From contig MFJL01000015.1 in NCBI GenBank assembly GCA_001779195.1, positions 1 to 43,334 of the forward strand: 43,334 nucleotides of DNA, in the 5' to 3' direction. Below the pieces are notes generated by a model, which made no database searches, was not told the DNA's origin, and was given only the letters and a program-made list of their open reading frames with translations. This DNA comes from Candidatus Gottesmanbacteria bacterium RIFCSPHIGHO2_02_FULL_39_11. Lineage in GTDB: Bacteria; Patescibacteriota; Microgenomatia; 2-02-FULL-39-11. Of this stretch, positions 1-20,678 are shown piece by piece. How positions within the stretch are numbered: position 1 is the stretch's first letter; every line of letters starts with the position of its first letter. Made by a program: the position numbers and the translations under genes.

Positions 1-1572
1 TAATTCTTCTATACTTCCTTTTATTTTTTCATAATTTCCGTCAGATCTAATTAATCCCAGATGGTAGGGCTCCTCAAAACCTGCTGTCATCCCGGGTTTA
101 TTTACCCTGTATACTCTTCCGAGTTCAAAAATAGTTACGGAATCAAAATTTGAGATATTTAATTTCAGCGCTGTTAATAAATTTCCCTTTAATGTCGGCC
201 TGAGGTACTCATAGTCCAAGCTTACGGGATTAGTTAATTTAATAACTTGAGACGGTTCTATGGTTAAATGGTTTAATTGTTGTTTGCTTATTAAGCTATA
301 GGTATACACCTCGGTATATCCAAAGCCTGAAATAATATTTTTTACTTTTTCTTCAAAAGAATAATTTTTAAAATAAGAAATTGGTTCTGTAGGAATTGAT
401 GAGTTGATAAATGTGGGGGTAAATCTATTGTACCCGTATATTCTTGCTACTTCTTCTATCAGGTCTTCTTCTATTTTTAAATCCTGGCGATAGGTGGGGA
501 TTGTGACGGTAATGATACTGGTGTTTTTGTCATGCTGAACTTGTTTCAGCATCTTCATTTCAGATTTTGAAGAGGATCCTGAAACAAGTTCGGGATGACG
601 TTTTTCTTTAGGATTTAGTGCGAGACTTTCAAGAATTGAGGTTATTTCTTTTTCCGGAATATGTATTCCTAATACTTTCCTAACCCTCTCAAGATCTAAG
701 TCTAATTTCCACGGATTAAATTCTTTTTCTTTTAAATCAATACTATCTGATGCTACTTCTCCCCCGGCAAGGGTCAAAATTAACCATGCAGCTCTTTTAA
801 GCGATTCCAAAAGCCCGCCTTTGTCTACACCCCGTTCAAAAATTGCGGATGCATCCGATCTTAAAGCCAGTGCATGGGATGAGCGTCTTATAAGTAGCGG
901 ATCATCCGCGGTAACCTGCAGATAGACAGTTGAGGTCTTATCTGTAATTCCGCTGTTTAGTCCCCCTTTTATTCCGCAAAGATCAATTATCCTCTCTCTG
1001 TCTTTTATAATAATTGCATTTTTCGGCAGCTTATAAGATTTTTCATCAACTGAAGTAAATTCTTCTCCTCCTTTTGAAAGTGAAACATGTATTTCGTGTC
1101 CTTTTATTTGGTCGTAATCAAAAGCATGGGTAGGAATACCCATCTCAAACATGACATAGTTTGTGATATCTACAATAGTATTAATGGGCCGCAGATTTAG
1201 TTGTTTAATTCTTTTCTTCAGCCAATCCGGTGAGGATTTAACTGAAATGTTATCTAAAATAATTCCGGTATATCTTGGAAAAAGTTTAAAATCATTGTGA
1301 ATGGTAATAGGTAAATTCTTGGAAGGCCTTGGTAAAGAAACTGAGGGAAGTTTTATTTTTTTCCTTCCGATTGCGGCTATTTCACGGGCAATTCCGATAA
1401 TTGAGAGAAGGTCGGGTCGGTTTGGGGTTACTTCAACCTCAAAAACATCTTCTCCTTCCATTTTTAATACTTTTTCAACGCTAAGACCCAGTTCCGTAAG
1501 ACGCCATGCTAATTCTTTCGTCGGAAGCGAAATATCTACGTATTCTTTAAGCCAGTTTATTGGAGCAAACAT
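1..1572 (-). CDS. pheT: Phenylalanine-tRNA ligase beta subunit, 3' part truncated by window edge (absent from ORF track)
   Basis: Minus-strand reading from ATG at 1570-1572: MFAPINWLKEYVDISLPTKELAWRLTELGLSVEKV...EVEVTPNRPDLLSIIGIAREIAA..., typical PheT; open to window edge in the stretches read. Confidence 0.93.
   Translation of the reverse strand, partial: MFAPINWLKEYVDISLPTKELAWRLTELGLSVEKVLKMEGEDVFEVEVTPNRPDLLSIIGIAREIAAIGRKKIKLPSVSLPRPSKNLPITIHNDFKLFPRYTGIILDNISVKSSPDWLKKRIKQLNLRPINTIVDITNYVMFEMGIPTHAFDYDQIKGHEIHVSLSKGGEEFTSVDEKSYKLPKNAIIIKDRERIIDLCGIKGGLNSGITDKTSTVYLQVTADDPLLIRRSSHALALRSDASAIFERGVDKGGLLESLKRAAWLILTLAGGEVASDSIDLKEKEFNPWKLDLDLERVRKVLGIHIPEKEITSILESLALNPKEKRHPELVSGSSSKSEMKMLKQVQHDKNTSIITVTIPTYRQDLKIEEDLIEEVARIYGYNRFTPTFINSSIPTEPISYFKNYSFEEKVKNIISGFGYTEVYTYSLISKQQLNHLTIEPSQVIKLTNPVSLDYEYLRPTLKGNLLTALKLNISNFDSVTIFELGRVYRVNKPGMTAGFEEPYHLGLIRSDGNYEKIKGSIEEL
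532..600. repeat. Palindromic repeat copy inside pheT, translated in frame
   Basis: catgctgaacttgtttcagcatcttcatttcag...gaggatcctgaaacaagttcgggatgacg; same family as 1583-1664, 10785-10866, 20562-20645; read in the pheT frame as RHPELVSGSSSKSEMKMLKQVQHDK. Confidence 0.85.
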
Positions 1573-1671: not shown

Positions 1672-2709
1672 TTAAAATTGATTAAGTATCCTCAGATCCG
1701 GCATTGTTAATAATCTCAGATCATCCATTCCGTATTTTAAAGTTACCAGACGTGAAAGACCGATCGCGAAAGCAAATCCCCGCCACATTTTGGGATCAAT
1801 TTTAGCTGATTTTAATACATTGGGATGGATCATTCCCGCGGGCATAATTTCAGACCATCCCGAGTTTTTACAAAAACTGCACCCCATACCTTTGCAGACG
1901 GTGCACTGCATATAGGTGTCAACACCCGGCTCGACAAAAGGAAAATTAGTACAGGCAAATCTTAATTTAGTTTTTTCCCCCATGATCTTTTTTAAAACGG
2001 TTGTAATCGTTCCAAAAAGATCAGAAAGAGTGATGTTGCGATCAACGGCAAACCCTTCCAATTGCCAGAATTCAAACCCGTGGGAGGCATCAACAGCTTC
2101 GTATCTAAATGCCTTTCCGGGAACAATTACCCGGATAGGAGGTGGGGTGCCCTCCATGACGCGAACCTGCATGGCGGATGTTTGAGTCCTTAAAAGAATT
2201 TCTCCAGGATTTGTACTCCCTTTTGTATCTATATGAAGGGACTGCTGAGTATCCCGTGCGGGATGGTCGTTTGGAAAATTTAGACTCCCAAAATTATACC
2301 AGTCTGTCTCAATTTCAGGTCCGTCGGCAGCTTGAAATCCAAGACTCTTAAAAATATCCAGAAGCTCATATAAAACATGTGTCTGAGGATGAAGATGTCC
2401 AAGCGCGGGTTTTTCACCCGGAATAGTTACATCAAACCAGGGAGATGAGTAAAATACGATAAGAGATTTCTTTTTATCCGTAAATGCTTTTTCAAGTTCC
2501 TTTTTTACGCTATTAATCAGTTTTCCTATTTTTGGTTTTTCTTCATTTGAAACTGTTTTTATTTCCTTTGAAAGGGTTGTAAATGATCCGCTCGTTGCAA
2601 AAACAGACAACCAGAGAGACTCCAAAGTAGAGGGGTTATCGACACGTTTAATTTTTTCAAGGACATCCTGTTGTAACGATTTTAATTTAGATTCCATATA
2701 TGCTGTCAT
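1672..2709 (-). CDS. pheS: Phenylalanine-tRNA ligase alpha subunit
   Basis: 345 aa; class II aaRS motifs (HPARDTQQSLH, GKAFRYEAVDASHGFEFWQLEG, GFAFAIGLSRL). Confidence 0.96.
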   Translation of the reverse strand: MTAYMESKLKSLQQDVLEKIKRVDNPSTLESLWLSVFATSGSFTTLSKEIKTVSNEEKPKIGKLINSVKKELEKAFTDKKKSLIVFYSSPWFDVTIPGEKPALGHLHPQTHVLYELLDIFKSLGFQAADGPEIETDWYNFGSLNFPNDHPARDTQQSLHIDTKGSTNPGEILLRTQTSAMQVRVMEGTPPPIRVIVPGKAFRYEAVDASHGFEFWQLEGFAVDRNITLSDLFGTITTVLKKIMGEKTKLRFACTNFPFVEPGVDTYMQCTVCKGMGCSFCKNSGWSEIMPAGMIHPNVLKSAKIDPKMWRGFAFAIGLSRLVTLKYGMDDLRLLTMPDLRILNQF

Positions 2710-2813: not shown

Positions 2814-3980
2814 TCATCTATCCGTCGCTATTTGGTTAAGATATCCTTCGTAATTTCTCCTAAGTTCCGTTAAACTATCCCCTCCGAATTTTTCTAAGAA
2901 TGCCTGTGCTAAAGTAAAAGCGGCCATGGATTCGGATATTACTCCGGCTCTGGGTACTACGCATATATCCGATCTTTCTATATTTGCCCTCACTTCTTTT
3001 TTAGTTGTTATATCAACCGTTTTAAGGGGATTTCCCAGTGTTGAGATGGGTTTGTGATAAACCCGCAGGATTATATCTTCCCCGTTTGTGACCCCGCCTT
3101 CAATTCCTCCGGCCCGGTTTGTAATTCTTGCGTATTTATTATTAACCAATTCAATTTCGTCCTGGACTTCAGATCCAAGTTTTGAGGCATTTTCAATTCC
3201 GTTTCCAATCTCAACGGCTTTTACAGATGGGATACTCATAAGAGATGCGCTGAGTTGTCCGTCCAGTTTTCTGTCCCAATGTACGTAGCTTCCAAGACCT
3301 GTTGGAATTCCTTTTACAATAATTTCGATGACCCCACCTAAGGTATTTTTATTTAAAATTGTTTTTTTTATCTCCTCTTTCATTTTGCCAGACGTCTTCG
3401 GATCAATACACCGGATCTCGGGATCAGTTTCAAATACTTTTTTTATTTTTTCAAAATCACGGCTATTCTCTTCTAATCTAATTTGTCCAATTTGTATGGT
3501 ATGACTCGCAATTTCAATTCCAAATTCAGATAAAAGTTTTCGGCAGACGGATCCTACCGCAACTCTCATAACGGTTTCCCGGGCTGAAGCTCTCTCTAAA
3601 ACATTTCTGATATCCGTAAAATGATATTTTAACATTCCCGGTAAATCAGCATGACCGGGGCGGGGGTTGGTAATTGGTGACGGTTGATAGTTATTGGTTG
3701 GTGATTTGATAGACATTTTTTCTGACCAATTTTTAAAATCCAAATTATCAACTTTTAAAGCAATCGGACTTCCCAGAGTTTTTCCGTGCCTTACTCCTGA
3801 AAGTATTTCAACTTGATCATCTTCAATAATCCCTCTTCCGCCCCGTCCGGCTCCCGATTTTCTTTTATCAAGATCCTTTTGAATATCTTCTTTGGTTAAA
3901 TTTAAGCCAGACGGAATACCCTCTAAAATAGCTACCTCAGATGGCCCATGTGATTCTCCGGCGGTTAAAAAACATATCAT
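2814..3980 (-). CDS. aroC: Chorismate synthase
   Basis: 388 aa; GESHG near N-terminus, RASARET, GGVTNGE motifs. Confidence 0.96.
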   Translation of the reverse strand: MICFLTAGESHGPSEVAILEGIPSGLNLTKEDIQKDLDKRKSGAGRGGRGIIEDDQVEILSGVRHGKTLGSPIALKVDNLDFKNWSEKMSIKSPTNNYQPSPITNPRPGHADLPGMLKYHFTDIRNVLERASARETVMRVAVGSVCRKLLSEFGIEIASHTIQIGQIRLEENSRDFEKIKKVFETDPEIRCIDPKTSGKMKEEIKKTILNKNTLGGVIEIIVKGIPTGLGSYVHWDRKLDGQLSASLMSIPSVKAVEIGNGIENASKLGSEVQDEIELVNNKYARITNRAGGIEGGVTNGEDIILRVYHKPISTLGNPLKTVDITTKKEVRANIERSDICVVPRAGVISESMAAFTLAQAFLEKFGGDSLTELRRNYEGYLNQIATDR

Positions 3981-5254
3981 ATCAGTTTACTCAATTCTTT
4001 TTTAATATTATTTTTATTTAATTTTTGTCCTGTAAATAATTCAAACTGCAGTAAAACATTATTTAAAATCATTTTATCCCCGCAAATGGTAATTGCTCCT
4101 TTTTCCTTTGCTTCTTTTATGAATCGGGTTTCTCTTGGATTATACACGATGTCAAATACAATTTGGCTTTTTTTAATAAGATTTTTTGGAAGAGGTGTTT
4201 CATTTTCGTGTTGTCCTTTCATTCCTAATGGAGTTGAATTAATTATAATGTCATAGTCACCGATACCGGATAAATCCTTTAAGTCGTAAGCGCGGTTTAA
4301 TCTGAATTCTTCAACTAATTTTTGCGCGTTTTTAACCGTTTTATTGTAGACATCAATTATCCCTCCGTGCATCTTTAATCCGTAGCAAAGAGCCCGGGAT
4401 GCTCCTCCTGCTCCAATTATCGCAGTTCTTTTGTTAGAAAGAGAAATGATTTCAGATAACGCTAAAACTGCCGCTTCTGAATCCGTATTAAATCCCATCC
4501 ATTTATCTTTTTTCTTGATAGCAGTATTGATGGCGCCGGTCTTTCCTGATGACGGGTCCAGTTTGTCTAAAAAAGGAATGATATTTTTTTTATGCGGAAT
4601 GGTAACCGCTATACCTTTGAAATATAACCTGTTAATAATTTCCATTCCGATTTTAATATCAGGAATATCCAATGCAAACATGCGTGCATTTATGTTATTT
4701 TCCTTATATCCGATGTTATGAAGGGCAGGTGAAACGGAATGAGAAATAGGATGACCAACTACTCCAAAGAGGAAAGTTTTTTTATCAAAAATAGATTCAC
4801 TATCGTTGTAAATAATTAAATCCGCGGATTTTTCATATAAATTTTTTCTTTCCTCGTATGTTTTTTTCAGATCATCAAAGAAATTTTTGGCATCCGTTAA
4901 AAACGGTCTATTTACTTTGTCTTTTATTCTTTTATATAAAATATCAACGGTTGACTTAAGATAAATTACGTACCCGTTTTTTTTAAGTAAGCCAATATTA
5001 TCAGAGTCTAGAATCACTCCCCCGCCCGTTGCTATAATGTGATTATTAATTTTTGAAATTTTTGCGATTAATTTCTTTTCTTCATATCTGAATTCTTCCC
5101 ATCCGTTTTTTTTAACAAAATCGGAGATGGGTATTTTAAATTCTTTTTCAAGTTCCACATCCAAATCTATCCATGGCAATCCAAGCCTTGCTGAAAAAAT
5201 TCCGGCAAAACTTGATTTTCCACTTCCCCGCATTCCTATAAAAATAAGATTCAT
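3977..5254 (-). CDS. aroK-aroE: Fused shikimate kinase - shikimate 5-dehydrogenase
   Basis: N-terminal GMRGSGKSS P-loop, DLD, GGG (AroK); C-terminal GHPISHSVSPALHN, NTDSEA, GAGGASRA, INSTPLGM (AroE); one continuous ORF. Confidence 0.94.
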   Translation of the reverse strand: MNLIFIGMRGSGKSSFAGIFSARLGLPWIDLDVELEKEFKIPISDFVKKNGWEEFRYEEKKLIAKISKINNHIIATGGGVILDSDNIGLLKKNGYVIYLKSTVDILYKRIKDKVNRPFLTDAKNFFDDLKKTYEERKNLYEKSADLIIYNDSESIFDKKTFLFGVVGHPISHSVSPALHNIGYKENNINARMFALDIPDIKIGMEIINRLYFKGIAVTIPHKKNIIPFLDKLDPSSGKTGAINTAIKKKDKWMGFNTDSEAAVLALSEIISLSNKRTAIIGAGGASRALCYGLKMHGGIIDVYNKTVKNAQKLVEEFRLNRAYDLKDLSGIGDYDIIINSTPLGMKGQHENETPLPKNLIKKSQIVFDIVYNPRETRFIKEAKEKGAITICGDKMILNNVLLQFELFTGQKLNKNNIKKELSKLI

Positions 5255-5255
5255 A

Positions 5256-6416
5256 TTAGTGGATTACAATAATGTTTGCTCCTAAATTCTTTAAATCTTT
5301 CCAAAAATTCGGGTATGATTTATTTACAACTTCCGCATTTTTAATTACCGACTCGCCTCTGGCAAAACAGGCAAGAATGGAAAGAGACATGGCGATCCGG
5401 TGATCTTTCCATGTATTAAATATGTCTCCTTTAGGATTACCGCCCATTATTTCCAATGTATTTTCCGATGAATTTATTTTAATTCCTGTTTTGGTTAACT
5501 CTGTTTGCAAGGCTTCTATGCGGTCTGATTCTTTATGTCTTAGATTTTTTATTCCCGTTATTACTGTTTTATAATTATTAAAAGAAGCAAGTACTGAAAC
5601 GGTTGGGACTAAATCAGGAAAAAAAGACATATCTATATTTTCTTTTTTGTCTTTAATAATTTCTAATATTTTTTTATCTCCCTGTACCGAATTCTCAGTT
5701 AAGTTTTTAAATTTAATTTTAGCTCCCAGTTCATTTGCTAATATAAAATAGGATGCCGAACTGTAATCCCCTTCGATCCGATAGGTAACTCCCTGATATT
5801 TCTGAGGGGGGACATCATAAGTTTTATTGTCCTTTACATTTACGTTAACTCCGAATTTTTTCATAAGATCAACCGTTATATCTACGTATGGGTGAGAGGG
5901 TAACCGGGATATAAGATGTATTATTAACCCTTTTTTTAATACAGGCGAAATAATAAGAAGTGCACTTAAAAATTGAGAACTTAATGAAGAATCTAGGCGC
6001 ACTTCACCTTTTGGAATCTGCAAGAGAGCTTCTTCAAGAGGTTTGATTGGCCTTTCCAGCAAGCGATTACTTCCTGTAAAATGAATTGAGACAGATGATA
6101 AGAAGCTGACTGCTTTTAGAAATCTGTATGAAGTTCCTGATTCTTTTACGTTTAAAGTTATTTGTTTTTTGTCAGGATTTATATTCCCATTTGTGCCTAG
6201 AATAATAACTCTGTCTTTCTCCTTTTTAATCCCTACTCCTAATTGTGACAGACAATTTAGAGTTGTATCCGTATCTTCACTTACTAACGGATTAATTATA
6301 GTTGTAATCCCGCTTGCTAAAGCGGCCATTATAAAAGCCCGATGCGTGACGCTTTTACTGGGAGGAACCGAAATACTTCCTTCAAGTTTTTTACCCGGTA
6401 TTATTTTAATGTCCAC
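5256..6416 (-). CDS. aroA: 3-phosphoshikimate 1-carboxyvinyltransferase (EPSP synthase)
   Basis: 386 aa; PPSKSVTHRA, SGTSYRFL, DHRIAMSL motifs. Confidence 0.95.
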   Translation of the reverse strand: MDIKIIPGKKLEGSISVPPSKSVTHRAFIMAALASGITTIINPLVSEDTDTTLNCLSQLGVGIKKEKDRVIILGTNGNINPDKKQITLNVKESGTSYRFLKAVSFLSSVSIHFTGSNRLLERPIKPLEEALLQIPKGEVRLDSSLSSQFLSALLIISPVLKKGLIIHLISRLPSHPYVDITVDLMKKFGVNVNVKDNKTYDVPPQKYQGVTYRIEGDYSSASYFILANELGAKIKFKNLTENSVQGDKKILEIIKDKKENIDMSFFPDLVPTVSVLASFNNYKTVITGIKNLRHKESDRIEALQTELTKTGIKINSSENTLEIMGGNPKGDIFNTWKDHRIAMSLSILACFARGESVIKNAEVVNKSYPNFWKDLKNLGANIIVIH

Positions 6417-6849
6417 TTGATTTTATATGCGTAACCAATTTTAATAATCCTTCTTCATAACTTTTTTCCTTTTTACCCGCAACCGTTTCGACTGAAATTT
6501 CTTCTAATACATTTATTTTCCTGAAATCCTCCCGGTTTGAAATATCTGAAAGATGCACGTCGATAACCGGAATATTGGCATCCTTTAGTGCATCAGCGAG
6601 GGCATACGAGTAATGGGTAAGAGCTCCCGGATTTATTAGAACCCCTGAAGCTTTTTGGCAATTGTGTTGAATAAAATCAATCAGTTCTCCTTCATGATTT
6701 GATTGAAAAAAAACAAGATTTATCCCTCGGGATTTTGCCTGGGTTTTTAATTTATCGTTAATTTGGAAGATGGTAAGAAAACCGTAATGCTTTGAGTTTC
6801 TTTTTCCAAGCATATTAAGATTGGGTCCGTTTATCACCAATATTTTCAT
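6406..6849 (-). CDS. aroQ: Type II 3-dehydroquinate dehydratase
   Basis: 147 aa; INGPNLNMLGKR, QSNHEGELID, NPGALTHYSYAL, DVHLS motifs. Confidence 0.96.
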   Translation of the reverse strand: MKILVINGPNLNMLGKRNSKHYGFLTIFQINDKLKTQAKSRGINLVFFQSNHEGELIDFIQHNCQKASGVLINPGALTHYSYALADALKDANIPVIDVHLSDISNREDFRKINVLEEISVETVAGKKEKSYEEGLLKLVTHIKSSGH

Positions 6850-7919
6850 AAGTTTTTGTTACCGTTTAAAAAAGCTAACGATTTTTTCAAATTATCCGGA
6901 TTTATTTTTACTCCCGGCAGCGTAATTCCGATTTTTTTAATGGCAACATAGGTTTTATTTTTTTTATCTTTTTGCATAATGTCCAACACTTTCGGAGTTG
7001 AAAAAGTAATAGAATTTACAATATGTAAAGATAAAATACTCATTTTAATTTTTTCAAATTCTTCCTTACTTAAGTACCCGTCCAGCATGCTCATATAGCT
7101 TTCTCCTAAAAGTCCCCAAACTACTGCAACGCCATGTGAAACTGTCCCGTTTTTTTCTCCCTCAATGCCATGACCGATTGTATGTCCTAAATTTAATTTC
7201 TCTCTTTGTTGGCCCGTTTCATTCGGATCAGATGCTACAATTTCCATCTTTATTTTTTGACATGCTTCAATTATTGGTCTTAGGGTTTGACCCGATTTCA
7301 CATTGTTAAAAATAGACTGTATGTCCAAAAGTTTCGGACTATTCCATCCGACAAAGTACTTCACGATTTCCCCTATTCCGCTTTTTAATTCTTTTTGGGG
7401 AAGAGTCGCAAGAAAATCCGTATCGCACAACACGATTTCCGGCTGATAAAAAGTTCCGATCATGTTTTTGTAAAGCATTCCGTTATTTTGAACATTTACT
7501 CCTGTTTTCCCTCCGAGGGATGCATCTACCATCCCCAGAAGTGTTGTTGGGATATACACCGTTTTAATGCCTCTTAAAAGAACTGATCCTATAAATCCTC
7601 CCAGGTCCGTAACTGTTCCCCCCCCGATTGATAGAAAAACGGATTTTCGCTCAACATCTTTTTCTATAATTTGATTGATTAAGTTAATCAGATCACCATT
7701 TAATGTTTTACTTTTTTCAGATGCACTTACAGGAATAACAGAAGCCACAACACCCAGCTTTTTAAACCCGGAATTGATAGTATTTCCATATAATTTCAGT
7801 ATGGTACAATCGATAAGACATACGACAGATGAAGGATTTAACTCCTTTAACTTTTCAGAAAAGTTTTGCATCAAATGGGATCCTACACTAATTTTAGTGT
7901 CTATTTTGTGAGTAGTCAT
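6846..7919 (-). CDS. aroB: 3-dehydroquinate synthase
   Basis: 357 aa; GGGTVTDLGGF, PTTLLGMVDASLGGKTGVN, LNLGHTIGHGIE motifs. Confidence 0.95.
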   Translation of the reverse strand: MTTHKIDTKISVGSHLMQNFSEKLKELNPSSVVCLIDCTILKLYGNTINSGFKKLGVVASVIPVSASEKSKTLNGDLINLINQIIEKDVERKSVFLSIGGGTVTDLGGFIGSVLLRGIKTVYIPTTLLGMVDASLGGKTGVNVQNNGMLYKNMIGTFYQPEIVLCDTDFLATLPQKELKSGIGEIVKYFVGWNSPKLLDIQSIFNNVKSGQTLRPIIEACQKIKMEIVASDPNETGQQREKLNLGHTIGHGIEGEKNGTVSHGVAVVWGLLGESYMSMLDGYLSKEEFEKIKMSILSLHIVNSITFSTPKVLDIMQKDKKNKTYVAIKKIGITLPGVKINPDNLKKSLAFLNGNKNL

Positions 7920-7920
7920 A

Positions 7921-8181
7921 TTATTTTTGTTGATACGTTTTTGATTCTTTTAACATCTCTTTCCATATTTTTATAATGAATTTTTCAGATAATTTATAAT
8001 TTTTGTTTAACAATCTGACATGATTTAATATTTCCTCTTCTCTTTTTTTTTGAAATACAGGAATATGATTATTTCTTTTAAATGATTTAATTTTTTCGAC
8101 AACTGAAAATCTTTTTGCAATAAGCTTAATTATTTTTTCGTCCACTTTGTCAATTTTCTCTCTCAGGTTGTCAAGTTTCAT
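7921..8181 (-). CDS. Chorismate mutase (AroQ fold, monofunctional)
   Basis: 86 aa; LDNLREKIDKVDEKIIKLIAKRFSVVEKI, typical CM_2 helix 1. Confidence 0.88.
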   Translation of the reverse strand: MKLDNLREKIDKVDEKIIKLIAKRFSVVEKIKSFKRNNHIPVFQKKREEEILNHVRLLNKNYKLSEKFIIKIWKEMLKESKTYQQK

Positions 8182-8995
8182 ATACGGGTGATTGAGAATA
8201 AATTCCTAATAATTTGACGGACTCGCATTTATCTTCAAGACCCTCAACTAACGTATTAAAATTTCCGTTTTCAGGTTTTATAAGATCCACAAAAAAACGG
8301 TATTCCCACGGTTTTCCTTCAATCGGACGGGATTCAATGGTTGTTAAATTAAAATTCTTTGATGCAATACTAGACAGAACATGAGAGAGACTTCCGGGTA
8401 CGTGTTTAACGGAAAATAAAATAGACGCTTTCTCTCCGTCTTTTTTTAACCTTCTTGAAATAACTGCAAAACGTGTAAAGTTATCTCTATGATTTTCTAA
8501 ATGTTCTTTATATATAGTTAACCCGTAAATTTCTCCGGCTTTTTTGCTTCCCACCACAGCACTTGTGCTATCGCCGGTTTTACTCAAATCCCTGGCAGCC
8601 GTTGCGGTATCGTTGACGATAATTTGGATAATACCGGGATGTTTTCCAAAAAAATTTTCACATTGCGCAAAGGCTTGATAATGAGAGAAACAAGACTTAA
8701 TCTCATCCACTGATATCTCATTATTAATTGTTAAAAGACAATGATTAATTCGAAGGACAACTTCATTTGTAATAAATAAATGATATTTATTTAGAAGATC
8801 ATAGCTTTCAACAACTCTTCCATGCAATGTATTTTCAATTGGAATAACTCCCAAGTCATTTTCGCTCTTCCCAATCCTTTGGAATATCTCTTCAAGAGAG
8901 ACGCACGACAATAAATCATTCGTATTATTGAATTTTTCAGCAGCTATGTTTGAGAAAGATCCCGGTAAGCCAAAGTATGTAATAGTGTTTTTCAT
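8171..8995 (-). CDS. pheA: Prephenate dehydratase with ACT domain
   Basis: 274 aa; GLPGSFSNIAAEKF, GVIPIENTLHGRV, NFTRFAVISR; C-terminal ACT with ESRPIEGKPWEYRFFVDL. Confidence 0.93.
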   Translation of the reverse strand: MKNTITYFGLPGSFSNIAAEKFNNTNDLLSCVSLEEIFQRIGKSENDLGVIPIENTLHGRVVESYDLLNKYHLFITNEVVLRINHCLLTINNEISVDEIKSCFSHYQAFAQCENFFGKHPGIIQIIVNDTATAARDLSKTGDSTSAVVGSKKAGEIYGLTIYKEHLENHRDNFTRFAVISRRLKKDGEKASILFSVKHVPGSLSHVLSSIASKNFNLTTIESRPIEGKPWEYRFFVDLIKPENGNFNTLVEGLEDKCESVKLLGIYSQSPVYET

Positions 8996-8997
8996 AT

Positions 8998-10011
8998 TTA
9001 TTCCCTGTCAACTGCCCGTGCAACCCGTTTAACTTCTTTAACCAATTTTGTCAACTCCTGAGGCGAGATAGCCTGGTCGGCATCCGAGATTGATTTTCTG
9101 GGATCTGTGTGCGCCTCAATCAGGAGCCCGTCAGCCCCCGCTGCAACCCCCGCCCGGCTTAAGGCTCTGACCATATTAGCCCTTCCCGTGCCGTGACTGG
9201 GATCAACAAATACAGGAAGGTGTGTCTCATGCTTGAGGTATGCAACGGCATTTAAATCCAGGGTAAAACGGGTTTCCTGGACATGAGTCCGTATACCTCT
9301 TTCGCATAAAATCACATGCTCATTTCCTCCGACTAAAATATATTCGGCAGCCAGCAGCAATTCCTTGTATGTTGCCCACATGCCTCTTTTTAGAAGTACC
9401 GGTTTGCGACTTTTTCCAAGCTCGCGAAGGAGCGGATAATTCTGCATGTTTCGGGCACCTATCTGGAAAATGTCTGTATATTTTTCAACAAGCTCAATAT
9501 CTCTCACATCCAGTATTTCAGTAATTACGGGAAGATTATATTTTTTACCTGCATCGTGTAAAAATCGAAGTCCGATTTTACCTAACCCCTGAAAATCATA
9601 GGGTCCGGTACGGGGTTTAAAAGCACCTCCTCTTAGCACATGGCACCCGGCATTTTTGACTTCTTTTCCCATATCCTCAATCTGATGTTTAGTTTCAACA
9701 GAACAGGGTCCTGCCATAATAATTATTTCTCTTCCTCCGATTAATAGAGTGTTGCCAATTTTTATTTTTCCGTTGTTGGGGCGAAATGTTTTGCTTGCAA
9801 GCTTATACGGCCGGTCTATGGGAAGTATTGCTTCAACTCCTGAGTGTTTGGCAACTTCTCTTCGGGATAACTCGGAAAATTTGCCGTTAACTACATATAG
9901 ACTCTGGCTTTTCCATTCAACGGGAATAACATCCACGTGAAGACTTACCAGAAGCCTCCTTACATCCGCATTGTCTTTAAAAGTGTTTGTTTGTTTTAGA
10001 GTAATGATCAT
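8998..10011 (-). CDS. aroF: 3-deoxy-7-phosphoheptulonate synthase, type I-beta with N-terminal ferredoxin-like regulatory domain
   Basis: 337 aa; IIMAGPCSVET, GGAFKPRTGPYDFQGLG, LKRGMWAT, DPSHGTG motifs. Confidence 0.95.
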   Translation of the reverse strand: MIITLKQTNTFKDNADVRRLLVSLHVDVIPVEWKSQSLYVVNGKFSELSRREVAKHSGVEAILPIDRPYKLASKTFRPNNGKIKIGNTLLIGGREIIIMAGPCSVETKHQIEDMGKEVKNAGCHVLRGGAFKPRTGPYDFQGLGKIGLRFLHDAGKKYNLPVITEILDVRDIELVEKYTDIFQIGARNMQNYPLLRELGKSRKPVLLKRGMWATYKELLLAAEYILVGGNEHVILCERGIRTHVQETRFTLDLNAVAYLKHETHLPVFVDPSHGTGRANMVRALSRAGVAAGADGLLIEAHTDPRKSISDADQAISPQELTKLVKEVKRVARAVDRE

Positions 10012-10158: not shown

Positions 10159-10238
10159 GGTAAAAAATCTTTCAGATTTTTCACCATAATGGAGAGTAAG
10201 CCTCTTCTTCACTTTGCTCAGAATCGTCAACTCTCCAT
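10159..10238. repeat. Two consecutive intergenic hairpins
   Basis: ggtaaaaaatctttcagatttttcacc and atggagagt...actctccat; similar pair at 27845-27913. Confidence 0.65.
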
Positions 10239-10263
10239 AAAAAAACCTCCCAGTTGGGAGGTT
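10239..10263 (-). terminator. Intrinsic terminator (segments 3:4 of attenuator)
   Basis: Minus strand: AACCTCCCAACTGGGAGGTTTTTTT. Confidence 0.93.
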
Positions 10264-10303
10264 CAATATTGAAAGTGCTTATTGCACCATCAATCTTGCC
10301 TCC

Positions 10304-10351
10304 CTAGGAGGTAAAGTAAAAATAAAAGAATTTGGTAGATGTCAGGTTCAT
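10304..10351 (-). CDS. Leader peptide MNLTSTKFFYFYFTS
   Basis: 15 codons plus TAG; 4 Phe and 2 Tyr codons consecutive (FFYFYF), stop codon inside hairpin 1. Confidence 0.85.
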   Translation of the reverse strand: MNLTSTKFFYFYFTS

Positions 10352-10368
10352 AGTGTTTATTTACCTTA

Positions 10369-10716
10369 TCAGCTATTTTTTACTTTGTCAACGATTGCGT
10401 TAAAAGTTCCGGTATCCGTTATCAGTAAATTAGACAGAATTTTCCGGTCCAGCGTAATATTTGCCTTTTTCATTTTTGAGATAAACTCACTGTAATTAAT
10501 TCCATGGTTTTTGAGGGCTTCTGAGATACGGACAATCCAAAGAGATCTAAAATCGCTCTTTTTCTTTCTCCGTCCGGCAAATGCATATTGTCCGGCATGA
10601 AGGGAAGCTTCTTTGGCAACCCGGACCAGTCTTCTCTTTGTCATCCGGTATCCTTTTACGGAACCGAGAAGCTTGTTATGTTTTCTTCTTGATACAACGC
10701 CTCTTTTTACTCGCAT
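10369..10716 (-). CDS. rplT: 50S ribosomal protein L20
   Basis: 115 aa; MRVKRGVVSRRKHNKLLGSVKGYRMTKRRLVRVAKEA; ribosomal operon context. Confidence 0.96.
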   Translation of the reverse strand: MRVKRGVVSRRKHNKLLGSVKGYRMTKRRLVRVAKEASLHAGQYAFAGRRKKKSDFRSLWIVRISEALKNHGINYSEFISKMKKANITLDRKILSNLLITDTGTFNAIVDKVKNS

Positions 10717-10749: not shown

Positions 10750-10886
10750 ATACTAGAAGTAGTCTCGAAACCTCCGCGTCTGCGTCATGCTGAATTCATT
10801 TCAGCATCTTCAGAAGATTCCTGAACCGAATTCAGGACAGGCTCTGAAACAAGTTCAGGATGACAGTTTAGAGATGACTTCTAAGC
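10750..10886 (+). mobile_element. 137-bp MITE-like repeat, copy A (between rplT and rpmI)
   Basis: About 135/137 identical, by eye, to the reverse complement of 20542-20678; imperfect terminal inverted repeats AGAAGTAGTCTCGAAACC / GGTTT(A/T)GAGATGACTTCT. Confidence 0.82.
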
Positions 10887-20541: not shown

Positions 20542-20678
20542 GCTTAGAAGTCATCTCAAAACCGTCATCCTGAACTTGTTTCAGAGCCTGTCCTGAATTC
20601 GGTTCAGGAATCTTCTGAAGATGCTGAAATGAATTCAGCATGACGCAGACGCGGAGGTTTCGAGACTACTTCTAGTAT
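20542..20678 (-). mobile_element. 137-bp MITE-like repeat, copy B
   Basis: Reverse complement of 10750-10886 with about 2 mismatches by eye. Confidence 0.82.

Follow-up and report, generated by a model that had tools for sequence, protein, structure and literature searches.

Does a bacterium of the Candidate Phyla Radiation (CPR) adjust the supply of its aromatic amino acids by translating a leader peptide? CPR bacteria are mostly uncultured and are often described as having little regulatory capacity. The question is raised by the minus strand at 10351–10239 of the window, the whole 43,334-nt stretch of DNA analysed here, which is contig 15 of a 1.55-Mb draft genome. At this site a leader ORF encoding MNLTSTKFFYFYFTS is followed by an intrinsic terminator and a competing antiterminator. 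A preliminary description had tentatively placed the DNA in the CPR, and this assignment holds: the closest rplT genes in named genomes, 54–76 percent identical, come mostly from Candidatus Gottesmanbacteria and other Microgenomates, the nearest named relatives being Candidatus Gottesmanbacteria (Microgenomates, CPR).

The leader, its hairpins and the genes around them

The leader ORF (10304..10351, minus strand) has 15 codons, with its ATG at 10351 and a TAG stop codon at 10306–10304. Directly upstream lies rplT, encoding ribosomal protein L20 (10369..10716, minus strand; TIGR01032, 126.8 bits), whose stop codon (10371–10369) is separated from the leader start by 17 nt rather than the 18 nt given in the preliminary description. 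Codons 8–13 (10313..10330, minus strand; TTC TTT TAT TTT TAC TTT) specify Phe-Phe-Tyr-Phe-Tyr-Phe, six putative regulatory codons in a row. Counterparts of the ORF are found at the equivalent site in relatives, where the run is kept with exchanges among Phe, Tyr and Trp. Behind the ORF come segments 2 (G-rich), 3 (C-rich) and 4 (G-rich), the last with a tract of seven Ts. When the sequence was re-read, the sequence, frame and coordinates of the leader, the positions of segments 1–4 and the T tract were all as first described.

All helices lie on the minus strand. Segment 1 (CCTCC, 10307..10311) is a weak partner of segment 2 in the window copy, the 1:2 hairpin having an energy of -6.8 kcal/mol. 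Segment 2, beginning with GGGAGGCAA, and segment 3, ending in CCTCCC, form an antiterminator hairpin with inner helices (10256..10304) of -23.2 kcal/mol. The intrinsic terminator 3:4 (10239..10264) pairs 10264–10256 with GGGAGG at 10251–10246, ahead of the T tract at 10245–10239; its energy is -12.3 kcal/mol as a separate helix, within a range of -12.3 to -14.4 kcal/mol. The 113-nt RNA as a whole folds at -36.1 kcal/mol, compared with -19.7 kcal/mol for dinucleotide shuffles (z -5.06; none of 200 shuffles was as stable). If the transcript ends ahead of segment 4, the 2:3 hairpin forms; at full length and without constraints, the minimum-energy fold has segments 1 and 4 paired, with 2:3 enclosed. 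In the originally proposed scheme of 1:2, 2:3 and 3:4 hairpins, the first is weak beside the latter two. The 1:2 hairpin is much stronger in most relatives, and segment 1 would have at most a minor role in the window copy. Owing to this weakness the window RNA prefers the antiterminator when no ribosome is present, so that the predicted default of an untranslated leader is read-through, not termination.

Upstream of the leader are thrS, infC, rpmI and rplT; behind it, all on the minus strand, lies aroF-pheA-aroB-aroQ-aroA-aroKE-aroC-pheS-pheT. The first gene of this putative regulated unit is aroF, for DAHP synthase (8998..10011; NF006421, 424 bits, and TIGR01361, 356.6 bits, both above cut-off). 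It is followed by pheA, for prephenate dehydratase (8171..8995; PF00800 above cut-off at 180 bits, NF008865 at 204 bits below its cut-off of 219), aroB, for 3-dehydroquinate synthase (6846..7919; TIGR01357, 282 bits, below the cut-off of 305), aroQ, for type II 3-dehydroquinate dehydratase (6406..6849; NF003805 above cut-off, and PF01220), and aroA, for EPSP synthase (5256..6416; TIGR01356, 348 bits, above cut-off). Next are aroKE, a shikimate kinase–shikimate dehydrogenase fusion (3977..5254; PF01202 over residues 9–154 and TIGR00507 over 162–422, above cut-off), and aroC, for chorismate synthase (2814..3980; TIGR00033, 405 bits, above cut-off). The last two, pheS (1672..2709; TIGR00468, 248 bits, above cut-off) and pheT (1..1572; TIGR00472, 404 bits, above cut-off), encode the alpha and beta subunits of Phe-tRNA synthetase. 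These profile matches confirm the aromatic biosynthesis and pheST genes of the preliminary description, and add that prephenate dehydratase is present and that pheT is truncated at the contig end.

The region also contains palindromic repeats. A repeat beginning with GTCATCCTGAACTTGTTTCAG has six matches where none would be expected (window 529–599, 1584–1664, 10844–10864 and 20564–20584); one copy lies in frame inside pheT (RHPELVSGSSSKSEMKMLKQVQHDK) and resembles Rickettsia palindromic elements, which insert into genes. Different palindromic repeats occupy the interval between the attenuator T tract and aroF, both in the window (10238–10012) and in relatives (L034, L035, L039 and L075). Such repeats often begin exactly at the T tract, as with those starting with ATGCAGCT in three relatives, as if terminators were their insertion targets.

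Recurrence, covariation and ribosome position

The recurrence of the leader was surveyed at 81 rplT loci, comprising the window and 80 named relatives, with the antisense strand and 403 random 800-nt pieces of the same contigs as controls. A leader was defined as a short ORF with at least five aromatic codons in a seven-codon stretch, lying within 800 nt of rplT and with a terminator behind it. Leader and terminator were found together at 39/81 loci in the sense orientation, compared with 2/81 antisense and 0/403 random pieces; with a stricter requirement of six aromatic codons in seven, 25 of the 81 loci remained, with none antisense and none among the 403 pieces. About half of the scanned rplT loci are without a leader, as are essentially all sampled loci outside the class. 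Examples from the same family, each behind rplT and each followed by a terminator, are MSKLRQTNNFYYFYFTAGSGIGLFCKL, MNSLTPTWSKYYFYFTS, MKLHLVNWFYFYFNPQAGSGFVV and MKEPKQTWFFYFYFKSPLSGTGLSGKN. An aromatic-rich ORF had been expected in related genomes, and it is borne out in relatives whose leaders otherwise differ: only the aromatic run is conserved, while the remaining residues of the peptide vary and Phe, Tyr and Trp interchange. This is the pattern expected of selection on the codons and not on the peptide. In 32/46 loci no more than 25 nt separate the leader start from the rplT stop codon, and translation of leader and rplT may therefore be coupled.

Gottesmanbacteria and Levybacteria often carry the rplT-linked leader, and other Microgenomates do so occasionally (5 of 34 further genomes of the class, one of them doubtful). 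Outside the class, in the same phylum, 66 regions downstream of rplT gave three weak sense candidates, which is no more than the four found antisense and equals background; phylum-wide presence beyond Microgenomates was accordingly dropped. One relative (L021) has, behind rplT on the minus strand of its locus, a leader that still begins with MQVPTIT and keeps a hairpin but is without the aromatic run, which was lost (MQVPTITLQHLTQFLSLPKAA); this element is possibly a decayed or re-purposed attenuator.

Covariation of the segments was assessed in 45 leaders by comparing the pairing energies of 1:2, 2:3 and 3:4 within each locus with those obtained when segments were exchanged between loci (20,000 permutations). 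Exchange was preferred to column pair counts because the MAFFT alignment of the leaders does not place their segments in true columns. The antiterminator 2:3 averaged -18.1 kcal/mol with its own segments and -12.9 kcal/mol with swapped ones (z -11.1), and the terminator 3:4 -13.1 and -8.5 kcal/mol (z -11.9). The protector hairpin 1:2, weak as it is in the window, was likewise locus-specific (-16.0 and -12.6 kcal/mol; z -8.2). For each helix, none of the 20,000 permutations reached the observed mean, a figure that is not a strict probability since the loci are related; relatedness makes swapped pairs more alike, however, so the bias runs against the observed result. The core of segment 3 occurs in 18 versions of 6 nt (CCTCCC, CCCCGC, TCCCGC and others), and the 2:3 helix has at least three pair types at most positions. 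The covariation of segments 2 and 3 anticipated in the preliminary description is thus found across loci.

The spacing of leader and hairpins is consistent with control by ribosome position. In most loci about 8–15 nt lie between the last aromatic codon and the start of segment 2. The leaders are of two designs, with an ORF that ends just ahead of segment 2 (the window and E. coli) or one that extends 20–30 nt into it; with the stop codon ahead of or within segment 2, a terminating ribosome would cover that segment in both. When the ribosome footprint was modelled in 45 loci as 27 masked nucleotides, the mean probability of the terminator was 0.36 with the ribosome on the first aromatic codon and 0.79 with it on the stop codon. 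The rise exceeded 0.2 in the predicted direction in 24 of the 45 loci and in none the other way; in the window the two values were 0.02 and 1.00. The ribosome-position logic first proposed is supported in this respect. A ribosome on the last aromatic codon also covers part of segment 2 and favours the terminator at thermodynamic equilibrium; the model therefore needs stalling at earlier codons or co-transcriptional folding.

Codon choice and leaders for other amino acids

The aromatic codons vary with the genes behind them. Tyr codons are present in all 19 leaders ahead of shikimate genes and in 10/25 ahead of pheS alone (Fisher p 1.5e-5), the other 15 of these 25 being without Tyr; when placed on a tree of thrS-infC-rpmI-rplT, this association is represented by about four informative pairs, all in the expected direction, with a median p of 0.125, which is not significant. 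A search for aroB found it absent from most genomes with pheS alone behind the leader and present in two, so that shikimate genes elsewhere do not account for the Tyr codons of leaders before pheS alone. Some relatives (L043, L046, L062, L079 and L084) differ from the window in the DAHP synthases and gene orders behind the rplT-linked leader. These loci look as if the regulatory site had stayed in place while the shikimate operons behind it were exchanged.

To search the class and family permissively, we used the Rfam model of the pheM leader of E. coli (RF01859, Phe_leader); many of its weak matches away from rplT proved to be further putative attenuators. Matches at E <= 0.01 occur in 153 genomes of the class and were inspected in part. 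Genes were named by eye from translations, except where confirmed in the window's family. Some inspected matches were rejected as plain terminators or palindromes (e.g. L264, L265, L276 and L283). Leaders rich in Phe, Tyr and Trp were found before pheS (MKRSLNFWFYYFTSR), prephenate dehydratase (MSKQSFQTFYFWFYFTDLKFGGIVLFKK), DAHP synthase (MNKFAAFYFYFTSLTGR, MKNLTNKNLYFYFDPKPGGDCC) and a gene that by eye resembles prephenate dehydrogenase (MLINVLCNFYFFTSPSSGGRFSA). Within the window's family, cysK is preceded by Cys leaders (MTVRFINLVCCCTSPKKGRYVC), leuA (MRQNLLLNLDFLLLGEI) and leuS (MNIFFLLLLRTA) by Leu leaders, aspartokinase by Thr/Ile leaders (MLKGKSFIIVTTTIGPSLKEVS), and ilvD-ilvB or ilvB by Ile/Leu/Val leaders (beginning with MIKNNLIILSVIVLAIVQGY). 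Thr/Ile, Cys, Leu and branched-chain leaders recovered in this family from weak Phe_leader matches include L266, L267, L271, L272, L274, L275, L278, L280, L281 and L282. Two lie in the window's own genome (G000), both with alternative hairpins and a terminator: a Cys leader before cysK (L269, contig 37:19300-19395; MNIFLICIIRCTLKT) and a Leu leader before leuA (L270, contig 26:52860-52972; VITNSLSNLLNLLLLGGI).

Among strong cysK matches with a placeable gene start, 10/12 loci have a Cys leader with a terminator. Upstream of leuA a Leu-rich leader and terminator are present in 9/10 loci, eight within 400 nt of the gene and one, doubtful, at 1.3 kb. Cys accounts for 2–4 of every seven codons in the cysK leaders and for fewer than two in the leuA leaders, and locus specificity also holds for 2:3 pairing in a set of 18 cysK and leuA leaders (5/20,000 permutations). 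Most ilvB loci have no leader directly upstream, and these may be inner genes of ilvD operons.

The match between leader codons and downstream pathway for several amino acids is the strongest argument that sensing is done by the codons. Judged from their sequences, the Cys, Leu and other leaders are the same mechanism read with other codons. It is probable that translation-sensing attenuation is general for amino-acid supply in this CPR lineage, with separate attenuators for Phe/Tyr/Trp, Cys, Leu, Thr/Ile and the branched-chain amino acids within a single family of bacteria with reduced genomes, and with codons re-tuned (Phe only or Phe and Tyr) as shikimate genes were gained or lost behind the rplT-linked site.

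Mechanism, alternatives and known systems

The window has the features of a classical attenuator, namely an FFYFYF ORF with a start and a stop, a terminator between this ORF and the first gene, and a covarying, mutually exclusive antiterminator. The codon run, the exclusive helices, their conservation, the locus-specific pairing and the gene order support the Yanofsky-type reading of the preliminary description, and the element is very likely a ribosome-mediated transcription attenuator for Phe and Tyr. A polymerase leaving thrS-infC-rpmI-rplT would transcribe the leader ORF, on which a ribosome would start immediately after rplT. If charged tRNA-Phe or tRNA-Tyr ran short, this ribosome would stall within the run of six aromatic codons, which lies upstream of segment 2, allowing the 2:3 antiterminator to form and the polymerase to continue into the nine genes from aroF to pheT. 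When both charged tRNAs are plentiful, the ribosome would reach the stop codon and cover segment 2, so that 3:4 forms and transcription ends in the T tract. We infer translation of the leader ORF, ribosome stalling on it, control of termination by tRNA charging and co-transcription of all nine genes.

Terminators are common after ribosomal-protein operons, and the hairpin might be a constitutive terminator of the rplT operon, with a short ORF that arose by chance and an aro operon served by its own downstream promoter; in the window, T tract and aroF are about 230 nt apart, which would suit such an arrangement. It is nonetheless very improbable, given that aromatic runs recur at this site far beyond the antisense level (39/81 loci against 2), that the antiterminator segment covaries with the terminator, and that the first aro gene directly follows the T tract in five relatives, which leaves no room for a promoter behind the terminator. 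The same codons argue against a sensor of another kind, such as a T-box binding uncharged tRNA, a metabolite riboswitch or binding of L20 protein, for which the aromatic ORF would be incidental. What speaks for such a sensor is that pheST is under T-box control in Firmicutes and that in E. coli the L20 protein regulates its own operon. In the window, however, no T-box or riboswitch model matches at its gathering threshold (and no T-box at E <= 5 in 10180–10400), the stretch from leader ORF to terminator holds only complementary segments and no conserved aptamer-like sequence, and codon identity tracks the downstream pathway for several amino acids; we regard such a sensor as extremely improbable.

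More plausible, though still unlikely, is a mixed device in which segment 4 (GGGAGG or GGGG, the 3' arm of the terminator) doubles as the ribosome-binding site of the next gene, so that the hairpin would control translation of aroF as well as termination. In L031, L036, L037, L056 and L079 no gap separates the T tract from the AUG of the first aro gene, and no purine-rich stretch other than segment 4 lies at a suitable distance for ribosome binding. The window and several relatives, by contrast, have palindromic repeats between T tract and aroF, so that segment 4 cannot serve aroF there, and the hairpin and T tract alone are sufficient for termination.

A Phe/Tyr attenuator of known mechanism is thus very probably present in a lineage for which a full-text search of the open-licence literature found no description of leader-peptide attenuation (Candidate Phyla Radiation or Patescibacteria), and is part of a wider set; in the one Microgenomates paper found to use the term, 'leader peptide' refers to bacteriocin leaders. 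The preliminary description, which knew of no amino-acid attenuator in the CPR, agrees with that search and understated the case, as the same family has several amino-acid specificities. A set of amino-acid-specific attenuators suggests fine biosynthetic control in Gottesmanbacteria and their relatives, and the leader codons would show which amino acid controls which operon, making amino-acid needs readable from metagenomes.

The closest known counterpart is E. coli pheM, the attenuator of pheST-ihfA, which lies between rplT and pheS (as annotated in L111), in line with the parallel drawn in the preliminary description. Both have a short leader with a Phe/Tyr run, a stop codon shortly before a G-rich segment 2 and a terminator with a T tract. 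Against RF01859 the window gives a full-length match of 32.7 bits (E 5e-4), which ranks first among 4227 families in this stretch and falls below the gathering score of 55; E. coli itself scores 75, and none of 288 class genomes exceeds the cut-off. The two differ in the distance of the leader from rplT (122 nt in E. coli, 17 nt in the window), in phylum, and in the regulated unit, which in the window begins with the shikimate/Phe pathway: pheS follows directly in many relatives, whereas seven aro/pheA genes precede it in the window. Position, peptide ending and the full-length match suggest homology with pheM, which is not claimed because Cys and Leu leaders of the same genomes also match RF01859, as do 11/14 control genomes at E <= 1. 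The occurrence of rplT-pheS attenuators in both organisms raises the question of whether they were inherited or arose by convergence.

T-boxes likewise couple tRNA charging to termination of pheST and aro genes, while in the window sensing would occur through translation of codons. Beyond Proteobacteria and Actinobacteria, leader-peptide attenuation is known from the histidine leader of hisS/hisZ in Firmicutes (PMC2965389), which differs from the window in amino acid, genes and phylum. Leader-codon attenuators that set a terminator against an antiterminator are described from gamma-proteobacteria, including pheST, and Actinobacteria (PMC1262725). As in the classical trp, his, leu, thr, ilv and pheA attenuators, the putative regulatory codons of the window lie in a leader ORF, and a terminator competes with an antiterminator. 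In contrast to these, the present element belongs to Microgenomates within the CPR, and one attenuator with Phe and Tyr codons, and in relatives also Trp, would serve both the common shikimate pathway and Phe-tRNA synthetase, extending leader-peptide attenuation to a deep bacterial branch.
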